Shown here: positions 2,084-64,000 of the stretch, piece by piece
Position numbering within the stretch: the first letter of the stretch is position 1
How the letters are laid out: every line of letters starts with the position of its first letter
From: Sulfurospirillum barnesii SES-3
GTDB lineage: Bacteria > Campylobacterota > Campylobacteria > Campylobacterales > Sulfurospirillaceae
Assembly: GCF_000265295.1 (NCBI RefSeq)
Contig: NC_018002.1
Location: 868,001-932,000 of the forward strand
Length of the DNA stretch: 64,000 nucleotides
Reading direction: 5' to 3'
Made by a program: the position numbers and the translations under genes
The notes under the pieces: generated by a model
What the model was told of the DNA's origin: nothing
What the model saw: only the letters and a program-made list of their open reading frames with translations
The model's database searches: none

Positions 2084-2114
2084 TTTACATGTAAAGAAAA
2101 TCTTTACATGTAAA
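2084..2114. repeat. Two copies of the TTTACATGTAAA palindrome
   Basis: Perfect copies lie at 2084-2095 and 2103-2114, separated by 7 bases, just after the stop of the TorD-type chaperone. Each copy is self-complementary and the pair can also fold on itself, so it may help end dms transcription, but there is no clear T-run. See the finding on this repeat family. Confidence 0.8.
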
Positions 2115-2762: not shown

Positions 2763-3602
2763 TTATCCTAAGAAAAGATGGTTGGTAATCAACCCATAAA
2801 AAGCAATACGTGTCAAGGCTAAACCGACCATACATAGGGCAAAAGAAGTGGCAATTTGTCCTTTACATGTAAAGCGTGTTTTGACACTATCGTTATAAAA
2901 TATCAGTGCTAATCCTAGACCCATAAGAAGCAATCCTCCGCCTGTAAAAAAGCCGTAGTATCCATGCATCATCTCAAACACATTTTCAATGCCCTCAATT
3001 CTCACAGAGCCAATGTGAATGGTATAAAGCACTAAGCTCATGGCAAAAAAGATAAATCCAAGGAGGCTTATAAAAAAGGCTTGATTGATTTTATGGGCAT
3101 CATTGGCACAAAAAAGACGGTAACAAACGCCTCCCAATACAAGAGCCGAGGAGGCAAAAAGAAAAAAGGTTAATCCAAAATCCCATGTTGGAAGGGTGTT
3201 AGACATAGAACCATAGATACCGCTCATCGCAAAAAGGGTTAAGATACCAAAAAAAGGTAACGCATAGAGGAGGGAGGGTATCTTTTTTAAAAGGTATAAA
3301 AATGCCAATGCCATCACACTTCCTACGCCTAAAATTTCCAAAGGAAGCCATGCAATCGTAGTGCTTTGGAAAAGATGTACCATCATATAAGGCGCATGAA
3401 ACGGGTCTCCTAGGTGAAACAAAGAGGCAACAACACTCAGTCCCATGAAGACCAAAAAGAGTTTGCTAAAGTAGGCATGCTCTAAAGCGGTGTGTTGGGT
3501 GTAATGTAGCGCATATATGAGAGAAAAACCAACACTTGCTTGTGCCATCACCGTAAAAATAACCAGCGGTAATTCGCTTACAATAAGATTAGACAATGTC
3601 AT
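2763..3602 (-). CDS. dmsC: DMSO reductase membrane anchor subunit (DmsC-type)
   Basis: Inner-membrane quinol-oxidising anchor that feeds electrons to the iron-sulfur subunit. The protein of 279 residues is almost entirely hydrophobic, with about eight predicted membrane helices starting with ELPLVIFTVMAQASVGFSL, as in DmsC. I chose the ATG at 3602 because it has a strong GGAGG 6 bases upstream and the DmsC family begins there; the frame stays open to an ATG at 3809, but that extension overlaps dmsB and is charged, not membrane-like. The start overlaps the end of dmsB by 14 bases. One TTTACATGTAAA copy (2862-2873) lies inside the gene and encodes FTCK. Confidence 0.9.
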   Translation of the reverse strand: MTLSNLIVSELPLVIFTVMAQASVGFSLIYALHYTQHTALEHAYFSKLFLVFMGLSVVASLFHLGDPFHAPYMMVHLFQSTTIAWLPLEILGVGSVMALAFLYLLKKIPSLLYALPFFGILTLFAMSGIYGSMSNTLPTWDFGLTFFLFASSALVLGGVCYRLFCANDAHKINQAFFISLLGFIFFAMSLVLYTIHIGSVRIEGIENVFEMMHGYYGFFTGGGLLLMGLGLALIFYNDSVKTRFTCKGQIATSFALCMVGLALTRIAFYGLITNHLFLG

Positions 3603-9620: not shown

Positions 9621-9643
9621 ATCTTTTACATGTAAAGATTTTT
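9621..9643 (+). terminator. Palindrome-based terminator after the response regulator
   Basis: A TTTACATGTAAA copy (9625-9636) sits in a slightly longer near-perfect stem (ATCTTT...AAAGAT) followed by five T residues (9639-9643), directly after the stop codon at 9614. This is the clearest case of the repeat acting as an intrinsic terminator. Confidence 0.6.
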
Positions 9644-13202: not shown

Positions 13203-14497
13203 AACATTTATGGTTAGTGATAATGATTTTTTTACAAGGAGTAGGTGTGGCACAAGAAGTAAGTCAAATAAATGTGAGGGGTGTGAATATCCCTGTGGTG
13301 TTTGAAAAAGAGAGCTCCTTACCTTTGGTTTCAGTACAATTGGTCGTGAAAAATGCCGGCAGTATGGAAGATGGCAGCAACGCTGGTATTGCAAAGTTTA
13401 CAGCAGGCATGTTGGGCGAGGGAACCAAAGAGATGGGCGCAACTGCTTTTGCAGAAGCGTTGGAGTTTCGAGCTATTTCCTTAGGAGCGCATGCGGGTGT
13501 TGAAACGCTTGTTTTTGAAGTCTCAGCCTTAAAAGAGCAATTTTCTTATGGTGTTGAGATGCTGCATAAATTAATGAAAAGCCCCAATTTTTCAAAAGAG
13601 AGTTTTGAAAAAATCAAGCGTCTGACCCTAGGAATGCTCTCAAGCAAAGAGAGCGATTTTGATTACATCGCAAACCTCAATCTTCAAAAGCTTATTTTTG
13701 AAAACACCCCTTTTGCACACGCTTACAGCGGTGATGCAAAAAGCATTAAAGCCTTAAAACTCAAAGATGTGGAGCATTTTTACAAAGAGCGTTTGAATTT
13801 GGAAAACTTGATTATTGTTGCAGGGGGCGATATTGAGCTTGAGGAGTTAAAAAAACTTTTGATGCCATTGCTTTTAGACATGAGCCATGGAAAAGTTAAA
13901 AACCTACCGTATTTTGATGCCAATAAAAATGCAAAAGAGCTTATCATTGATAAAGAGAGCGAACAAGCCTATATCTATTTTGGAGCACCTTTTTATATGA
14001 AAAGTGGCGATGTTGAGGCGTATAAAGCCAAAGTGGCAAGTTTTATTTTAGGAGAGAGCGGTTTTGGAAGCCGTTTGATGGAAGAGATTCGTGTGAAGAG
14101 GGGACTGGCGTATTCTAGTTACAGCAGAACGTCCATTGGAAAATCGCACAGCAGTTTTACAGGGCATCTTCAAACTAAAAATGAGAATTTAGACGAAGCA
14201 AAAAAAATTGTAGCCGCTGAAATTAAGCGTTTCGTGGAAGAGGGCGTGAGTGCTGAAGAGTTAGCCCAAGCCAAACGCTTTTTATTAGGTAGCGAGCCTT
14301 TGCGTAATGAAACACTCTCCCAAAGACTCTCTCGTGCCTTTTTTGAGTATTACAATGGGTATGAGCTAGGACATTCTAAAAAACAGCTTGAGAAAATTGA
14401 AGCGCTAAGCCTTGAAGAACTCAATCAATTTATTAAAAAACACGACGAAATCACCGCTCTTAGCTTTTCCATAGTGACAAAGCGTGATAAAAAGTGA
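13199..14497 (+). CDS. M16-family peptidase homologue lacking the zinc motif
   Basis: Secreted or periplasmic protein of 432 residues with a signal peptide (about 1-18). It has the two-lobed M16 (pitrilysin/PqqL-type) layout, including GVEMLHKLMKSPNF, YSGDAKSIKALKLKDVEHFYKERL and the C-lobe motif RGLAYSSYSRTS. However, the place where active subunits carry HxxEH reads GIAKFTAGMLGEGT, with no His or Glu zinc ligands. In established M16B systems such subunits pair with an active partner; I see none in this window. It may be a structural or binding subunit. It overlaps mqnC by 4 bases and recG by 14 bases. Confidence 0.85.
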   Translation: MKHLWLVIMIFLQGVGVAQEVSQINVRGVNIPVVFEKESSLPLVSVQLVVKNAGSMEDGSNAGIAKFTAGMLGEGTKEMGATAFAEALEFRAISLGAHAGVETLVFEVSALKEQFSYGVEMLHKLMKSPNFSKESFEKIKRLTLGMLSSKESDFDYIANLNLQKLIFENTPFAHAYSGDAKSIKALKLKDVEHFYKERLNLENLIIVAGGDIELEELKKLLMPLLLDMSHGKVKNLPYFDANKNAKELIIDKESEQAYIYFGAPFYMKSGDVEAYKAKVASFILGESGFGSRLMEEIRVKRGLAYSSYSRTSIGKSHSSFTGHLQTKNENLDEAKKIVAAEIKRFVEEGVSAEELAQAKRFLLGSEPLRNETLSQRLSRAFFEYYNGYELGHSKKQLEKIEALSLEELNQFIKKHDEITALSFSIVTKRDKK

Positions 14498-16304
14498 AGG
14501 TGACACGGTAGAAGCGGAGCGTTTAAACAAGCTAGGGGTTGAAACCCTGCTTGATTTAGCGCTGCTTTTGCCCCATTCGTATGACAATACCTACCTTTCC
14601 TCTGTGCCGCTTTTGGAGCAGAATAATACCTTACATGTAACGATACTTTCCATCAAACAAAGCCCCAAAGTGTTGCAGATGCTTCTTTTTTGCGAGGCAT
14701 GGAATATGCAATTTGATGGGGTGATTTTTGCGCCAAAACCCTATCAAAAAGCGCTTTTTAAACAAGGTGTTGAAGCTTATATAAGCGGAAAAATAAGCTA
14801 TAAAAATGGGCGTTTACAGATGCTCCAACCCCGCAATATTACACAGATTAACCAACTCATTCCAAAGTACAAAACTCCGCTTCAAAATAAAACCGTTTTA
14901 GAGCTGATGAAACGCCATCTAAGCCTTGAATCTCTCTTAAACGAGGGCTTACATGTAAACGAAGCGAAGAGTCTTTTAAGCTTGCATTTTCCTACTCCAA
15001 AAGAGGTGAGTTCCTTTGAAAAAGAGGGATATTCACCTCAGATACAAAAGTGTTTAAAATTTGCAGAGATTTACAATTACCTCAAAAAACTCTCACGCAA
15101 AAAAGTGAGCTTTCCTTCGTGTGCGAAGCTTGATGGTGATGAAACGCCTTTTATCGCCTCGCTTCCTTTTTCTCTTACCCAAGACCAGCAAAAAGTTATT
15201 GGTGAAATTAAACATGATTTTTTGGGTGAAAATGCCACAAAACGTGTGGTGATGGGCGATGTTGGATGCGGAAAAACCATGGTGATTTTAAGTTCTGTGA
15301 TGATGGCATACCCTAAAAAAGCAGTGCTTATGGCTCCTACAACGGTTTTAGCACGTCAGCTTTTTGAAGAAGCGCAGAAATTTTTGCCTTTACATGTAAA
15401 GACGATTTTAGTGACGCAAGAAACAGATGTTAAAGAAGATTTGGAGGCGTTTGATTTTATGATTGGAACTCATGCTTTGTTGTATAAAGAGCTTCCTCAA
15501 TGTGCACTTGTGATGGTGGATGAACAGCACCGTTTTGGCACCAAACAACGCTCATTGCTTGCAACATTGGTCTCTAAAAAAGCATGGCATCCGCATTATA
15601 TTCAGTTCTCAGCCACACCGATTCCTAGGACACTCAGCATGATTCAATCGTCATTGGTTGATTTTTCCTTTATTAAAATGCTTCCTTTTCCAAAAGACAT
15701 TACCACAACAGTAATTGCTAAGCAGGATTTTAAAGCGCTGATTGGGCATATACAAGATGAAATTGCAAAAAAGCATCAGTGCATTATTGTCTACCCGTTG
15801 GTAGAGGAGAGTGAGGTCATCAACTACCAATCCATCGAAGAGGGACGTGGTTTTTGGGAAAAGCATTTTGAGGGTGTTTATGTCACGTACGGTAAAGATA
15901 AAAACAAAGAGGCAATTTTAGATACTTTCAAAGAAAAAGGCAATCTGCTGATTTCTACCACGGTGGTGGAGGTGGGCATTTCACTGCCAAGACTTTCTAC
16001 GATTGTGATTGTGGGGGCTGAGCGTCTAGGGCTTGCGAGTTTGCATCAACTCAGAGGAAGGGTCAGCCGTAATGGACTGAAGGGTTATTGTTATCTTTAC
16101 ACGAATCTTGCCAAAAGTGAGCGTTTAGAGAAGTTTTCTCAAACATTGGATGGTTTTGAAATTGCAGAGCTTGATTTGGAGTATCGTCAAGGCGGAGATG
16201 TGGTAGGTGGTGTGATTCAAAGTGGTAAAAAATTGGTCTGGTTTGATATAAGCAGCGATGAAGCAATATTAAAAGAGGCAAAAAGCAGGGTTGAGGGAAC
16301 ATAA
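14484..16304 (+). CDS. recG: ATP-dependent DNA helicase RecG
   Basis: Branch-migration helicase acting on stalled replication forks and Holliday junctions. Superfamily-2 motifs are clear: Walker A GDVGCGKT near residue 259, motif Ia APTTVLARQLFEEA, DEQH box near residue 346, FSATPIPRTL, TTVVEVGISLP and QLRGRVSRNG. The length (606) is typical of the shorter epsilonproteobacterial enzymes. The start is GTG at 14484, inside the previous gene. Three copies of the TTACATGTAA palindrome (14631, 14949, 15389) lie in the gene and always encode Leu-His-Val, an unusual concentration. Confidence 0.95.
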   Translation: MIKSEGDTVEAERLNKLGVETLLDLALLLPHSYDNTYLSSVPLLEQNNTLHVTILSIKQSPKVLQMLLFCEAWNMQFDGVIFAPKPYQKALFKQGVEAYISGKISYKNGRLQMLQPRNITQINQLIPKYKTPLQNKTVLELMKRHLSLESLLNEGLHVNEAKSLLSLHFPTPKEVSSFEKEGYSPQIQKCLKFAEIYNYLKKLSRKKVSFPSCAKLDGDETPFIASLPFSLTQDQQKVIGEIKHDFLGENATKRVVMGDVGCGKTMVILSSVMMAYPKKAVLMAPTTVLARQLFEEAQKFLPLHVKTILVTQETDVKEDLEAFDFMIGTHALLYKELPQCALVMVDEQHRFGTKQRSLLATLVSKKAWHPHYIQFSATPIPRTLSMIQSSLVDFSFIKMLPFPKDITTTVIAKQDFKALIGHIQDEIAKKHQCIIVYPLVEESEVINYQSIEEGRGFWEKHFEGVYVTYGKDKNKEAILDTFKEKGNLLISTTVVEVGISLPRLSTIVIVGAERLGLASLHQLRGRVSRNGLKGYCYLYTNLAKSERLEKFSQTLDGFEIAELDLEYRQGGDVVGGVIQSGKKLVWFDISSDEAILKEAKSRVEGT

Positions 16305-39377: not shown

Positions 39378-40403
39378 TTGAAATTTAGTGACTATATGCA
39401 TGAGTGGCTCTATGGAAAAGAGGGCTACTACAGCAATATGCGAACCATCGGAAAAGAGGGCGATTTTTACACCGCTGTGAGTACGAGTATGTTCTTTGGT
39501 GGAAGCATTGCAAAACGTCTTCTTTCAAGCATTGAAGAGGGATTTTTAACATCAAAGACGTATGTGGTTGAAATTGGTGCGCATAAAGGGTATTTGTTAG
39601 CCGATATGATTCAGTTTATCTATACCCTCAAACCTGAATGGCTCAAAACATTGACGTTCGTTATTGTTGAGCCATTCTCTGCCAATCAAATCATGCAAAA
39701 AAAGTATTTTGAAGAGGCGTTTGGGGATGCAATAGAGCTTTTACATGTAAAGAACTTAGAAGAGCTTACATGTAAAGAAGCTTTTTTTGTTGCCAATGAG
39801 ATTTTTGATGCGTTTACGTGTGAAGTGATTTATGGAAATGAGATGCTTTTTATCGAAGAGGGAAAAGCGTTTTTTGCCGCTATGGATTCGTTTACATGTA
39901 AAAAAGCAGAAGCGTATGGTGTGAGCAAAGGAGAGCTTTGTTTAGGTTATGAATCTTTTGCAAAGGCTATGGCAAAGAGCGCAGAGCGTTTTGAATTTAT
40001 CACGTTTGATTATGGGGATAAAGAAGCAAGAGGAGATTTTTCTCTGAGAGTCTATGCCAAACATCAAACCTATCCTTTTTTTGGATTAACCAATTTGGTA
40101 GAGGAAAAACTTCGAGAACCACTCCTTTTTGATGCCCTGTTTCAAAAGAGCGATATAACGTATGATGTCACTTTTAGCCATCTTTTTCAAGCATTTGAAA
40201 GCTCTGGTATGAGGCTTTGTGCGTACAGTACACAGATGAAAGCTTTGGTTGATTTTGGACTCATTGAACTTTTAGAGCTTTTTGCCGACAAGGTATCGCC
40301 AAAGGTCTATGAGCAAGAAATGAATCGTATTAAAACACTGATAGATCCTTCCTTTATGGGCGAACGTTTTAAGATGGCCTGTTTTCGAAAAGAAAAAGCG
40401 TAA
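39378..40403 (+). CDS. SAM-dependent methyltransferase, MidA/NDUFAF7-like
   Basis: Protein of 341 residues of the MidA (DUF185) family, methyltransferases known in mitochondria as complex I assembly factor NDUFAF7. Motifs: MRTIGKEGDFYTAVSTSMFFG, VVEIGAHKGYLLADMI, FVIVEPFSANQ, FFVANEIFDAFTCEV. The likely start is TTG at 39378. Remarkably, three palindrome copies (39740, 39766, 39891) fall within 165 bases and encode LHVK, LTCK and FTCK. Target in this organism unknown; NuoD-like subunit is a guess. Confidence 0.85.
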   Translation: MKFSDYMHEWLYGKEGYYSNMRTIGKEGDFYTAVSTSMFFGGSIAKRLLSSIEEGFLTSKTYVVEIGAHKGYLLADMIQFIYTLKPEWLKTLTFVIVEPFSANQIMQKKYFEEAFGDAIELLHVKNLEELTCKEAFFVANEIFDAFTCEVIYGNEMLFIEEGKAFFAAMDSFTCKKAEAYGVSKGELCLGYESFAKAMAKSAERFEFITFDYGDKEARGDFSLRVYAKHQTYPFFGLTNLVEEKLREPLLFDALFQKSDITYDVTFSHLFQAFESSGMRLCAYSTQMKALVDFGLIELLELFADKVSPKVYEQEMNRIKTLIDPSFMGERFKMACFRKEKA

Positions 40404-50364: not shown

Positions 50365-51273
50365 CTATTTTTGGCGAGACCAATACCCCGCAAGCAGAGC
50401 CCCTGAAATATTGTGCCAAACACTAAAAATTGCACCAGGTAACGCACTAAGAGGGGTAAAATATTTCATAGCAAGAGCAACCGCAAGTCCTGAATTTTGC
50501 ATCCCCACTTCAATGGCAATGGTTTTACAAATTTTATGCTCAAATCCCATAAAGCGTGCTATCCAATAGCCACTAAAGAGTCCTGTAAGGTTATGTAACA
50601 TAATTCCCACAATGACCATGAGCCCAATACTAGCAATTCTTCCTTGATTAAGTGCAACGACAATGGCGATAATCAAGACAATGGCTAGCATTGAAAGTGT
50701 CGCCAAATAGGGCTCATAGCGTTTAATGAAGCGATGAAGAAAATAGTTTACAATCACTCCTACAAACACAGGTGCTAAAACCAGTTGCAAAATGCTAATG
50801 AGCATATCGCTTGCTGGGACAGGAACCGTCTGCCCCACATACAAAAGGCTTAAAAAAGGTGTTGCCACAATAGAAAGCAAGGTTGATGTGATGGTCATCG
50901 TAATGGAAAGGGCTACATCACCTTTGGCTAAATAGGTAATGACATTGGACGCCGTACCACCTGATACCGCTCCTACGAGTACCATTCCAATGAGTAGCTC
51001 TGTTGAAAACCCTAAGGCTTTGGAAAGCAAGAGAGCTGCAAGAGGCATGATGGTAAATTGCAAGAGTATGGTTAAAATAATCGGTTTTGGTTTTTTCAAA
51101 ACACGTGCAAAATCTTCTAAACGTAAGGTGACACCCATAAAAAACATAATGGCGACCAACAAGGGGGTGATATAGGCCTTGTACGGCACAATGTGCTCAG
51201 GTACACTGTACGCCAGAATGGAAAAAAGCAGTGCCCATAAGGGGAAAAGGGTGTTAATGCGTGCAATCATCAT
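50365..51273 (-). CDS. Bile acid:sodium symporter (BASS) family transporter
   Basis: Protein of 302 residues with nine or ten membrane helices; YITPLLVAIMFFMGVTLRLEDF, VGAVSGGTASNVITYLAKGDVALSITMT and EVGMQNSGLAVALAMKYF match the BASS family, Na+-coupled carriers of organic anions. The substrate in bacteria is usually unknown (pantoate or similar acids have been proposed). I start at 51273, the first of two ATG codons after AAAGGA; the frame runs further upstream to 51498 but that part is basic, includes the palindromes and is not family-like. Confidence 0.88.
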   Translation of the reverse strand: MMIARINTLFPLWALLFSILAYSVPEHIVPYKAYITPLLVAIMFFMGVTLRLEDFARVLKKPKPIILTILLQFTIMPLAALLLSKALGFSTELLIGMVLVGAVSGGTASNVITYLAKGDVALSITMTITSTLLSIVATPFLSLLYVGQTVPVPASDMLISILQLVLAPVFVGVIVNYFLHRFIKRYEPYLATLSMLAIVLIIAIVVALNQGRIASIGLMVIVGIMLHNLTGLFSGYWIARFMGFEHKICKTIAIEVGMQNSGLAVALAMKYFTPLSALPGAIFSVWHNISGALLAGYWSRQK

Positions 51274-51339
51274 AAAAATCCTTTGTGAAAGTAACGTGAA
51301 ACAAAAGAGGAAATTATAGCAGAAGTGGGTAAAAGAGGG

Positions 51340-51372
51340 TTTACATGTAAAGCATGGAAGCTTTACATGTAA
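51340..51372. repeat. Pair of palindromes upstream of the BASS gene
   Basis: TTTACATGTAAA at 51340-51351 and TTTACATGTAA at 51362-51372, 10 bases apart, in the 106-base gap between the cyclophilin stop and the BASS start. The pair can fold as one long hairpin and may terminate the cyclophilin transcript. Confidence 0.8.
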
Positions 51373-51379
51373 GGCACGA

Positions 51380-51874
51380 TTAGAGTGTGTCTTTGATTTC
51401 GATGGTGAGCATTTTATCGTCTTGAGTGATGCTGTCAAGCACTTTAAAGCTCTCTTTATCCTCTTTATCAATTGCACCAAAAACGGTGTGAACGCCATCT
51501 AAGTGAGGGCAGTCTACAAAGCAGATAAAAAATTGGCTTCCACCTGTGTTGGGACCTGCGTGTGCCATCGAGAGACTTCCTCGTTTGTGTTTACTTTTTT
51601 GACCACGGCATTCGCACGCAATATTCCAGCCAGGACCTCCTGTACCTCTACCGCTTGGACATCCGCCTTGTGCCATAAAATTTTTAATCACACGGTGGAA
51701 AATAAGCCCATCGTAGAATTTATCGTTGGCAAGGGTCGCAAAGTTTGCTACAGCAATGGGTGTCTCTTCAGGGTTTAGTTTAATGACAATATCGCCTTTT
51801 TCGGTTTTAATGATGGCATATTGAAACGCTAAGAGTTGCTCTTTGGTGTAGTCGTATGTTTTGAGTTTACTCAT
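51380..51874 (-). CDS. Cyclophilin-type peptidyl-prolyl isomerase
   Basis: Protein of 164 residues catalysing Pro cis-trans isomerisation. Motifs: [31 protein letters not shown] with the catalytic Arg, [21 protein letters not shown], and [11 protein letters not shown]. No signal peptide, so cytosolic. The start at 51874 follows AAAGG and fits the family; the frame extends to 51919 in a hydrophobic stretch I think is untranslated. Confidence 0.93.
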
Positions 51875-57327: not shown

Positions 57328-60060
<2,733 letters not shown>

Positions 60061-60068
<8 letters not shown>

Positions 60069-61110
60069 TGAATTTAACAATAGAGTTTACGGGTGTGTGG
60101 TCGTTAAGGCAATAAATGCAAACTATAATGCAGACTTTAATGGACTTCCAAGAAGGCTTAAAAGTGACGGTAGTTTTTATGCGACGGATAAATCATTTAA
60201 ATGGTTAGTGAGGAACTATATTAAGAAAAATTATCAAGATGAAAAGATACTATTTACAAAGATGTATGATAAAGAATATAAAGATACTATGGATTTGAAA
60301 GAAGCATTTGAGATTGTTACCGAGACAGGAGATATTAAAAATTTTAAGAAAAAAGATATTCTACCAAAACTTACTAATTGTATTGATATAAGGTTGTTTG
60401 GGGCTGTTTTTTCTCCAGAAAATGCAAAAAAAGACACAAGTGATGAAAATAAAAATATCTCACTTCATGGAGTAGTTCAAGTAAATCATGCGATTGATTT
60501 ATTTGGTAAAGGTAAAGTTTACACTGATGAAATACTGGCTCCTTTTACGGCAATAGGGAGTATGAGCAAAGCTACCGAAGCTCACTATATTCATCATTTT
60601 TCAGTTAACCCTAAAAATTTATCTAGTTGGAAAAAACTATTTGAAGAAGCAACAAATAAAGAAGATTCAACTAAGAAACAGGGAGAATTACCGTTAGCAA
60701 ATAAAGAATTAAATATCAAGGTCTTATCTCAAAATGATATTGTAATTTTAAAAAATGCTTTTAACAATGCCGCAACATTTTACGATTCACATTCCAAAAG
60801 TGGTGTAGAAAATGAGCTGTCTATTTATGTAACTTTAGAAGAGAGTTCGATTTTAACACTTCCTAGTTTTGCCCAATTTATCACATTTAAAAAAGGTGAA
60901 AATGGAGAAAAAAATAGTTTTGATATAAGCAAGCTTATCAGCTATTTGACAAAAGATAATATCAAAAAAGAAATCAAATCTATAGAAATATATGCTATTA
61001 AAGAGCTAACACAAGTCATTTGTAGTATTGAAAATGAAAAAATCAAAGAATGCGATTTATTGGAACTAACAAACATTTCAGCAGAGCAAAAAAATGAAAA
61101 AGCTGATTAG
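60061..61110 (+). CDS. cas7: Cas7 backbone protein (Csh2-like)
   Basis: Protein of 349 residues forming the RNA-coating backbone of Cascade. Start NNRVYGCVVVKAINANYNADFNGLPRR and SLHGVVQVNHAIDLFGKG...FTAIGSMSKATEAHYIHHFSVNP fit Cas7 of type I-B. The start at 60061 is chosen because GAGGAG (60048-60053) is then 7 bases away; an in-frame ATG at 60055 is too close. Overlaps cas8 by 8 and cas5 by 17 bases. Confidence 0.9.
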
Positions 61111-61837
61111 TTTTACCATAAAATCTGATTTTGGTATGTTCAAAAAACCAGACATCAATGATAAAATTTTTATCACTTATAACATTATCCCAAAGACTTA
61201 TGTTTTTGGGATACTTGGTGCGATTATGGGTTACGAGGGTTATGCTCAAAATAGAGATAAAACAAAAATGCCTGAGTTTTATGAAAAGCTCAAAGACATA
61301 AGGGTAGCGATAGCTCCAAGTGATAAAAATGGTGGCATTTTAAAAAAAGAGTTTATTTTATTTAATAATACATGTAATGGTGAAACGAAAAACATTACAG
61401 AGCAAACTCTCGTCAATCCAGCATATGATATTTACATCGAAATTGATGAAGAACATGAATTACTAAAGAGATTAAAAGCCAAAGAAGCAGAGTTTCTTCC
61501 CTATATGGGAAAAAATGAATTCTCTTTATCGTGGGATAATTTTCACGAGCATGCTGTATTTGAAAAAGTTGAACAAAAGGAGCAATTTAAAGTTTTGACA
61601 ATTATTCCAAAAGATGAAAATTTTGTTTTAAAGAATAGTGGACACAAAGAAAAAACAACAAACTACTTTTATCTTTTTGAAAGATTACCTATTGATTGGA
61701 ATGACAATCCTAGGCAATATAAATATCAAGAGTTTCTATATACCAATGCGGTATTTAAGTCATCCGAGAGTTTAAAATCGATTGGTTCTGTAGGCGAACT
61801 TTTTGAATCTGATAAAGGTATTATATGCCTCTTTTAA
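61094..61837 (+). CDS. cas5: Cas5 (type I-B)
   Basis: Protein of 247 residues that caps the crRNA 5' handle. The N-terminal SFTIKSDFGMFKKPDINDKIFITYNIIPKTYVFGILGAIMGYEGYA is the typical Cas5 beta-hairpin start with its Gly-rich ILGAIMGYEG segment. The start lies inside cas7 (17-base overlap) and its end overlaps cas3 by 13 bases. Confidence 0.9.
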   Translation: MKKLISFTIKSDFGMFKKPDINDKIFITYNIIPKTYVFGILGAIMGYEGYAQNRDKTKMPEFYEKLKDIRVAIAPSDKNGGILKKEFILFNNTCNGETKNITEQTLVNPAYDIYIEIDEEHELLKRLKAKEAEFLPYMGKNEFSLSWDNFHEHAVFEKVEQKEQFKVLTIIPKDENFVLKNSGHKEKTTNYFYLFERLPIDWNDNPRQYKYQEFLYTNAVFKSSESLKSIGSVGELFESDKGIICLF

Positions 61838-64000
61838 AATTTAGTGATTTTGATATAAAGTTCAATATTGATGACAAATATAAAGCTCATTTATCACAAA
61901 ATAAGCAATATAAAGAGTCGTTAAAAGAGCATATTGATCTCGTGTATGATTACTTCTTGAAACTTATAGAGCAAAATGACTTGGAACAGCGTTTAAATTC
62001 TCTTTTTAAAAAAAGTGCCAATCTATTTGAAGAGATAGAAGTAAAAGAAGAATTTGCAAATTTCACAAAATATCTTTTTGCAAAAGCAATTTATTGGCAT
62101 GATATGGGCAAAATGAACCCCAATTTTCAAAAAGAGAAAATGCTCAATGAAATAGATGAGAAATCTGTAATTTCAGATAGTCATCATTCACCTCTTGGTG
62201 CATATTTATTTATTAATCACTCATTAGATGAACTGTATGCTAAAAAATGGCATGAAGATAACGAAGAAATTTTTGAAGCTATTATCTATTTGTTTGGATT
62301 TTTAATCTCAAAACATCATGGAGTAATTTATCAATATGAAGATTTGGATTTACAAAATGAGTTTGTTGATTTTTTAGATAAATTTCATCTTGAAACAGAA
62401 CATACAAAAAAGTTAAGAGATGAGGACAGGGTATTTTCTTCAATTTTTGATTCTATTGAAAATAATGAAGAGGTATTGTTTCTACTTTCTAAATCCCTTT
62501 TCTCACTTCTTATCATTTCAGATTACTATGCTACAGCACAATTTATGAATTATGGAAATTGTAAAGAACTAAAATATAAAAATTTTGGCTTGGTAGATGA
62601 TGATTTTAGGAAAACAATTTACAAAAGATTTTACGAAAATCAATTTGATAAAGAACTCATTAATAAAACTACTAGTGATTTTAAAGACTTTGACGAGTTG
62701 CAAGAAAAGTCAAATAGTAACTTAAATCACTTACGAAACAAGCTTTTTATAGAAGTTAGAACAAACTTACAAAATGAGCTTAAAAAGAACAAATCACAAA
62801 ACCTTTTTTATATCGAAGCTCCCACAGGTGCAGGTAAAACAAACCTATCACTCATGAGTGTCGTTGAGATTTTAAAGCTTGACACTTCAATCACTAAAGT
62901 ATTTTATATTTTTCCATTTACAACGCTGATCACTCAAACATATACTTCTATCAAAAAAATACTAGCTCTTGATAATGCTCAAATCGTGCAACTTCATTCA
63001 AAAGCAAAATATAATCAAAAGCAAGAAGAAAAAGAAGATGGCATTTATGGAGAGGATAAAAAGAATTTTTTAGATAATCAATTTATGAATTATCCTATGA
63101 CACTTCTAAGCCATGTTAAGTTTTTTGATATATTGACTGGAATTAGTAAAGATGACAATTATATTTTCCATAGATTATCGAACTCAATCGTCATCATAGA
63201 TGAGATTCAAACATACAGCCCAGATTTTTGGGCACGAATTGTTTATTTACTTGATATGTATGCTAAAAATTTCAATATTAAATTTATAGTAATGAGTGCA
63301 ACTTTGCCTAAGATTGGCAAGATTATAGATAGTCAATTTACATTTTTAGTTTCCAATAAACAACGATATTTTCAAAATCCGAATTTTGCAAAAAGAGTGA
63401 CAATAGACACAAATGTGAAAAATATAAATAAACCTGAAGAGATTTACGAGTTATTGATAAAAGGGAGTGAAAACTATCAAACCTTAGAAACCAATGATTC
63501 AAAAAAAGTAAAAACCATTATAGAATTTATCACAAAAAAAGGGGCAGATGAATTTTATAAACACGCCAAAAAATACAGTGAAATTTTTGATGAGATTTTC
63601 ATACTTAGCGGTACGATTTTGGAACCAAGACGAAAAGAGATAATCGATTTTATAAAAAATACACACGACAAAAATATTCTACTTGTGACAACTCAAGTGG
63701 TTGAAGCAGGCGTGGATATAGATATGGACATAGGATTTAAAGAAAAATCTCTCGTCGATAGTGATGAACAACTAGCAGGAAGAATCAACCGAAATAGTTC
63801 AAAAGAGGGCAATAAACTATTTTTATTTAGCATTGGCAAAGGAAATGATAAATTTGTTTACAAAAAAGATAAGAGAAACGGTCTTTCTGGAAAATATCAA
63901 GAAGACGGTAAAGAACAAAATGTTTTAAACACTAAAGATTTTGATAAATTTTATAGTCAAATTTTAGACAAGATTATTGAGAACAATACGAAAAATTTTA
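61825..64000 (+). CDS. cas3: Cas3 helicase-nuclease with N-terminal HD domain, partial
   Basis: The effector of type I interference; the first 725 codons are present and the gene leaves the window. The HD nuclease domain has His92-Asp93 in WHDMGKMNPNF, SHHS and SKHHG histidines and a later Asp in ISDYYAT. The helicase has Walker A PTGAGKT (Lys338), DEIQ at 459-462, SATLPK at 491-496, TTQVVEAGVDID and QLAGRINRN. The ATG at 61825 overlaps cas5 by 13 bases. No frameshift is seen, so an active enzyme is expected. Adaptation genes and array should lie to the right, if present. Confidence 0.93.
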   Translation, partial: MPLLKFSDFDIKFNIDDKYKAHLSQNKQYKESLKEHIDLVYDYFLKLIEQNDLEQRLNSLFKKSANLFEEIEVKEEFANFTKYLFAKAIYWHDMGKMNPNFQKEKMLNEIDEKSVISDSHHSPLGAYLFINHSLDELYAKKWHEDNEEIFEAIIYLFGFLISKHHGVIYQYEDLDLQNEFVDFLDKFHLETEHTKKLRDEDRVFSSIFDSIENNEEVLFLLSKSLFSLLIISDYYATAQFMNYGNCKELKYKNFGLVDDDFRKTIYKRFYENQFDKELINKTTSDFKDFDELQEKSNSNLNHLRNKLFIEVRTNLQNELKKNKSQNLFYIEAPTGAGKTNLSLMSVVEILKLDTSITKVFYIFPFTTLITQTYTSIKKILALDNAQIVQLHSKAKYNQKQEEKEDGIYGEDKKNFLDNQFMNYPMTLLSHVKFFDILTGISKDDNYIFHRLSNSIVIIDEIQTYSPDFWARIVYLLDMYAKNFNIKFIVMSATLPKIGKIIDSQFTFLVSNKQRYFQNPNFAKRVTIDTNVKNINKPEEIYELLIKGSENYQTLETNDSKKVKTIIEFITKKGADEFYKHAKKYSEIFDEIFILSGTILEPRRKEIIDFIKNTHDKNILLVTTQVVEAGVDIDMDIGFKEKSLVDSDEQLAGRINRNSSKEGNKLFLFSIGKGNDKFVYKKDKRNGLSGKYQEDGKEQNVLNTKDFDKFYSQILDKIIENNTKNF

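Follow-up and report, generated by a model that had tools for sequence, protein, structure and literature searches.

A methyltransferase-associated, highly iterated palindrome maintained by selection on DNA in Sulfurospirillum

In Sulfurospirillum barnesii SES-3, the stretch of DNA analyzed here (the window: 64,000 bases, positions 868001–932000 of the genome; coordinates are those of the window unless stated otherwise) contains an open reading frame (ORF) at 39378–40403 whose only Pfam match, Methyltransf_28 (PF02636), is compatible with a MidA-like protein. This gene carries three copies of a perfect ten-letter palindrome, TTACATGTAA, found mostly within TTTACATGTAAA; starting at 39740, 39765, and 39891, they span 163 bp, in line with an original prediction that had placed three copies within 165 bases of the gene. 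The same prediction had announced three copies in recG, which are indeed found in a recG-like ORF. The features of the window are listed below, the palindromes without strand.

39378..40403, plus strand: MidA-like gene (Methyltransf_28, PF02636; Pfam), carrying three palindromes
39740..39751: palindrome copy 1 of the MidA-like gene, read L-H-V-K (sequence and alignment)
39765..39776: palindrome copy 2 of the MidA-like gene, read L-T-C-K (sequence and alignment)
39891..39902: palindrome copy 3 of the MidA-like gene, read F-T-C-K (sequence and alignment)
14484..16304, plus strand: recG-like helicase ORF (DEAD, Helicase_C; named in the original prediction), with copies at 14630, 14948, and 15389
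2084..2114: intergenic palindrome pair, 19 bp apart, hairpin possible
51340..51373: palindrome pair, 22 bp apart, within ORF 50365–51498, one copy per open frame
2862..2873: single coding copy, read F-T-C-K
Starts 10484, 19310, 30299, 36158, 47448, 52456, 55334, 56611, and 57828: other single coding copies
9625..9636: single non-coding copy
Starts 23212, 24502, 27001, 32130, 32182, 37117, and 41350: other non-coding copies

Altogether, the window holds 28 perfect copies of the 10-mer, of which 10 are non-coding and 18 coding, the latter count correcting the "about 16" first announced. The coding copies are read in the TTA-CAT-GTA frame (11) or the ACA-TGT frame (7), and never in the frame that contains a stop. 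Both of the peptides initially described, LHVK and FTCK, do occur, with flanks that vary more than was claimed (LHVK/LHVN/LHVT and FTCK/LTCK/FTCN). Allowing up to two mismatches, TTTACATGTAAA is matched 46 times, against 9.3 ± 3.0 expected and a maximum of 19 over 100 shuffles. A near-copy at 39813, TTTACGTGTGAA, was considered as a fourth site of the MidA-like gene and rejected, relatives conserving just the protein pattern DAF.C there. At the end of the window, positions 57840–64000 are palindrome-free and AT-rich (28.8% G+C over the last 4 kb), and these final 6 kb are possibly a foreign island.

At the scale of the genome (2,510,109 bp, single contig), TTACATGTAA is present in 1,230 copies, that is, about 490 per Mb, when the reversed-sequence control pattern is present in 6. 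In a 464-kb sample, 247 copies were counted for 1.1 expected under an order-2 Markov model, and one-base variants inside the 10-mer were almost absent; the consensus extends weakly to CTTTACATGTAAAG, the next two positions being T in 66–75% and C in 51–54% of cases. In a 564-kb sample, 189 copies lie in ORFs and 116 outside (0.38 vs. 1.90 per kb), and the two open frames account for 187 of the 189 coding copies (LHV 121, TC 66, stop frame 2), as had been predicted. Intergenic copies are densest between convergent genes, at 4.1 per kb; tandem intervals hold 2.9 per kb, at a median distance of 21 bp past the upstream stop codon, and divergent intervals hold 1.6. Seventeen close pairs (15–36 bp apart) were also found, 12 of them non-coding, where a hairpin is possible. 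Every 20–100 kb chromosome stretch sampled contained 0.35–0.80 palindromes per kb, and neither clustering nor polarity was seen in these stretches. In the general sense of a short, dispersed, perfect palindrome occurring far above what composition predicts, TTACATGTAA is a highly iterated palindrome (HIP). A literature search on the motif itself, with most subscription journals outside its coverage, found nothing relevant, and a search by sequence for relatives of known structure found none. As a side observation on the 464-kb sample, several other palindromes are strongly avoided (observed vs. expected: CCGG 9 vs. 292, CGCG 85 vs. 704, GGCC 128 vs. 823, GATC 539 vs. 1543), as expected from past restriction–modification pressure.

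Sites from two regions, the window and genome positions 2160001–2260000, were then mapped to relatives, designated here by genome handles. In relatives that encode the methyltransferase described below, perfect sites are largely retained: 56/60 in G005 (85% nucleotide identity), 55/61 in G015 (81%), and, at about 77% nucleotide identity, 13/17 in G012, 9/11 in G013, and 17/20 in G023 (39/48 together), when same-composition control 10-mers are identical in 38% of cases in G005, 19% in G015, and 12–17% in the other three. A single site out of 33 survives in the enzyme-less G009 and G020 (P = 3e-13 vs. enzyme-bearing relatives at equal divergence). Few new palindromes appear in relatives; individual sites stay where they are instead of turning over. 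Within genes, we compared the TTA, CAT, GTA, ACA, and TGT codons whose amino acid is kept, inside and outside motifs. Motif codons are identical in 104/104 cases in G005 (71% outside motifs), 117/118 in G015 (60%), 23/25 in G012 (48%), 22/22 in G013 (46%), and 33/33 in G023 (50%), which for the pooled relatives at about 77% identity gives 78/80 against 49% elsewhere. In G009 and G020, motif codons are at background (18/32 identical vs. 54%), and motif-coded residues disappear faster than average (54% kept vs. 78%, P = 5e-5). Synonymous positions are frozen just where the methyltransferase is present, in five relatives with it and not in two without. Since sites are retained and their synonymous codons frozen, selection acts on DNA, and we hold it as nearly certain that the palindrome is maintained for its DNA rather than for the amino acids it encodes.

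The original prediction had asked whether these residues are conserved as DNA or as protein, and had proposed either sequence-level selection that proteins tolerate or an insertion of peptides. On a genome scale, the codon comparison, used in place of separate alignments of RecG, HemL, and DprA, answers in favor of DNA and strongly supports the first proposal; it refutes a conserved protein motif as a general explanation. The second proposal was rejected, relatives without the motif aligning without gaps at all three sites of the MidA-like gene, from which it follows that sites are gained and lost through substitution. Copies 1 and 3 differ in their conservation. Copy 1 is found in nearly all motif-bearing genomes, across four genera, with its synonymous positions frozen, and H-V-K is kept there through other codons in three genomes that lack the DNA motif (G009, G002, and G021), so that this site suits the protein too; conservation of residues without the DNA repeat, named beforehand as the observation that would contradict selection on DNA, is thus seen at this copy. 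It is not seen at copy 3, which is lineage-restricted and fully replaced by unrelated residues, with zero gaps, in genomes without the motif. The persistence of H-V-K at copy 1 is what speaks for a need of the proteins themselves for the LHVK/FTCK residues. However, more than a third of all copies are non-coding, two unrelated reading frames are in use, synonymous positions are frozen in motif-bearing genomes only, and the encoded residues are lost at an accelerated pace once the motif has gone, so that protein need or peptide insertion can practically be dismissed.

With regard to METHYLTRANSFERASE, a single D12-class adenine methyltransferase (PF02086, 141 bits) is encoded in the genome, outside the window:

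Genome 2225021–2225989, minus strand: orphan D12 adenine methyltransferase (PF02086)

The gene has a histidine kinase gene on one side and a transglutaminase-like gene on the other, and no nearby ORF appears to encode a restriction enzyme; the genome thus harbors an orphan D12 adenine methyltransferase, as in CtsM-type systems. Methyltransferases of the PF01555 family were considered as the cognate enzyme and rejected, being absent here and in at least seven other motif-rich genomes. Close orthologs of the D12 enzyme (59–97% identity) are found in every member of the genus with more than 860 copies of the motif, except G017, and as fragments in G006. When the comparison is restricted to genus genomes with a completeness of at least 90%, all 12 that have a close enzyme are motif-rich, and of the five lacking it, four are motif-poor and one is rich (Fisher P = 0.002, uncorrected for kinship). 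In a MidA tree, the motif-poor genomes form two sister pairs, G009 + G020, whose syntenic locus lacks the enzyme, and G010 + G011, also enzyme-less and with decayed copy numbers, while a further pair, G002 + G021, carries a diverged enzyme; this topology therefore implies about three independent events, including at least two independent enzyme losses. For each perfect copy there are about 0.2–0.34 one-mismatch copies in genomes with a close enzyme, 0.52 in G007 (enzyme 59% identical), and 1.45–5.6 in the four decayed genomes. There are exceptions: the clade of G001 (86% complete) and G017 (99% complete) is motif-rich, with no D12-type enzyme found, and the enzyme was likewise not found in the motif-rich G027 and G029, from other genera, and G184, from another family. 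Outside the family, the association is mixed, G174 having both motif and enzyme (the latter in a housekeeping context), G184 the motif alone, and G082 and G076 the enzyme alone, as a homolog about 50% identical in genomes where a TTACATGTAA-type motif is absent; homologs near this identity may have different specificities. The excess of ACATGT in G076 stems from a CRISPR-looking repeat array. On account of these exceptions inside and outside the genus, the dependence of the palindrome on the orphan D12 methyltransferase is correlative, yet it is well supported within the genus and we consider it probable.

The motif itself varies across the family around its ACATGT core, which has TT/AA, CT/AG, or relaxed flanks depending on the genus: the relaxed form T[TG]ACATGT occurs in G002 and G021, which have the diverged enzyme, and CTACATGTAG occurs in G036 and G029, of other genera. 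As in DNA uptake sequences, an over-represented motif of 9–12 bp thus shows family dialects with a fixed core, G026 being the exception with TCATGA. In that family member, whose enzyme is 48% identical, ATCATGAT is over-represented (41 vs. 9) and replaces the ACATGT palindrome. In the other family, to which G184 also belongs, G174 has 608 copies of TACATGTA, with the consensus CTTACATGTAAG; G174 and G184 independently have about 610 copies each, when their close relatives have 8–58. In two genomes of that other Campylobacterota family, dispersed non-palindromic 8-mers are over-represented on both strands, TGCGTGAG in G059 (10.5 vs. 0.4 in 40 kb) and TGGCGTTT in G082 (12.5 vs. 0.7), which could be uptake or Chi-like sequences. 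Separately, a plasmid of Sulfurospirillum diekertiae (NZ_CP059996.1, 39,868 bp, corresponding to contig 2 of G016) encodes a diverged methyltransferase copy of its own (about 51%, with an altered C-terminus), adjoining an IS21-like transposase. This plasmid has 14 TACATGTA for 0.75 expected, several of them within the methyltransferase gene itself, and 4 full 10-mers for about 18 predicted from chromosomal density.

In sum, TTACATGTAA is a genuine HIP-type DNA signal found outside cyanobacteria: it extends over the whole genome, is under strong selection, which maintains it in Sulfurospirillum and its family, and has a candidate writer enzyme. As to its role, we tentatively favor, by analogy with known systems, a methylation-linked highly iterated palindrome that would most likely serve as a self-DNA uptake signal, the whole chain up to uptake itself being given slightly less than an even chance. 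Known D12 targets are mostly 4–6 bp long when 10 bp are conserved here, which makes a writer combined with a reader of the longer palindrome the simplest scheme. Under this scheme, the D12 enzyme would methylate both strands of the ACATGT core, and the putative reader, a second factor, would recognize the methylated core together with its TT/AA flanks. The methylated palindrome might then mark self DNA, most likely in natural DNA uptake; palindromes would spread through a preference for site-bearing DNA in uptake and recombination, and would persist since variants drop out of this exchange. ComEC is present in the genome, and the dialects, the gene-end bias, and the hairpin pairs parallel Neisseria uptake sequences. 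Two observations count against uptake: ComEC does not track the motif, being retained in the motif-losing genomes, where its loss is thus not seen as a cause, and no enrichment of copies was seen in DNA common to relatives compared with unshared DNA.

The behavior of ComEC would suit a different role just as it stands, namely that the methylated palindromes are a chromosome mark read internally, for organization, replication control, repair, or gene regulation, as Dam or CcrM sites are, with no part in uptake. Such a mark would fit the methyltransferase association and the site-level selection equally well, and the density of sites is fairly even across the sampled stretches. Yet most copies are intragenic, the non-coding ones prefer gene ends to promoters, those stretches showed no clustering or polarity, and the flank dialects of the family demand a co-evolving reader under this model as under the uptake model; we therefore see an internal mark as rather unlikely, if a serious contender. 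Less plausible still is a protein binding site, for a nucleoid, segregation, or terminator factor, to which the methyltransferase would be incidental: a sharp palindrome of 10–12 bp suits a dimeric protein, and G001 and G017 retain the motif with no enzyme detectable, but the motif has decayed in two separate enzyme-less clades, the syntenic locus of G009 and G020 is cleanly devoid of the enzyme gene, and the motif is altered where the enzyme diverged.

The ratchet proposed for HIP1 by Elhai 2015 (PMC4390886), in which sites are a by-product of methylation-directed mismatch repair, shares with the present case a palindrome and an orphan methyltransferase. This MutL-dependent ratchet is rejected because MutL (PF01119) was not found in the genome, the same search being positive in 11 of 14 control genomes; moreover, sites are conserved in place with few new ones in relatives, and we give such a by-product only the slightest credence. 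The uptake signal, our preferred reading, can in turn be set against known families of dispersed sites. Chi sites are likewise scattered over a genome in about a thousand copies, under DNA-level selection; they are directional and non-palindromic, when a palindrome has no direction, and a methyltransferase link is not expected for them. HIP1 itself is GCGATCGC, GC-rich and cyanobacterial, and like it and the alternate cyanobacterial HIPs, the Sulfurospirillum motif is a perfect palindrome, extremely over-represented in genic and intergenic DNA, probably associated with an orphan DNA methyltransferase, and substituted by other palindromes in some relatives (PMC4390886). It differs from them in its phylum, in its AT-rich core (the cyanobacterial palindromes are GC-rich), in its density (about 490 copies per Mb vs. 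generally 1000–2000), in its strong non-coding bias, and in the lack of MutL.

Closer in kinship, Campylobacter jejuni belongs to the same bacterial phylum as Sulfurospirillum. Its DNA uptake requires CtsM-methylated sites (PMC8468864), and its RAATTY site, a degenerate 6-mer present about 27,000 times per genome, has an enzyme annotated as D12 adenine methyltransferase (PMC4294202). Both systems would thus combine a D12-class orphan adenine methyltransferase with a palindromic AT-rich site, and the marking of self DNA by CtsM/RAATTY is the role proposed here for TTACATGTAA by analogy, the enzymes being likened through their D12 annotation; unlike RAATTY, TTACATGTAA is a sharp 10-mer in 1,230 copies. 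The DNA uptake sequences (DUS) of Neisseriaceae resemble it in their 10–12 bp, their thousand copies or more, their genus dialects around a fixed core, their intergenic hairpin pairs at gene ends, and their tolerated coding copies (PMC3630211). In contrast to TTACATGTAA, Neisseria DUS are non-palindromic and ComP-read, with no known methyltransferase dependence.

The question of what function highly iterated palindromes serve goes back to HIP1, and this family offers a natural experiment on it, with close relatives that have or lack one methyltransferase and that display decay, dialect change, and codon release. It is a direct demonstration of a short DNA signal prevailing over protein optimization at hundreds of sites, and since the signal exists in a genome without MutL, MutL-dependent repair is not its general cause. 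With countable sites and a candidate writer enzyme, the question can be tested in strains that are non-pathogenic and can be cultured. More tentatively still than the uptake role itself, we suggest that free-living Campylobacterota may possess a methylation-dependent palindromic uptake code with species dialects, which an orphan methyltransferase would write, a second factor would read, and which would be strong enough to determine the amino acids at hundreds of positions in each genome. If this were true, iterated palindromes of the cyanobacterial type and DNA uptake sequences would become one phenomenon.
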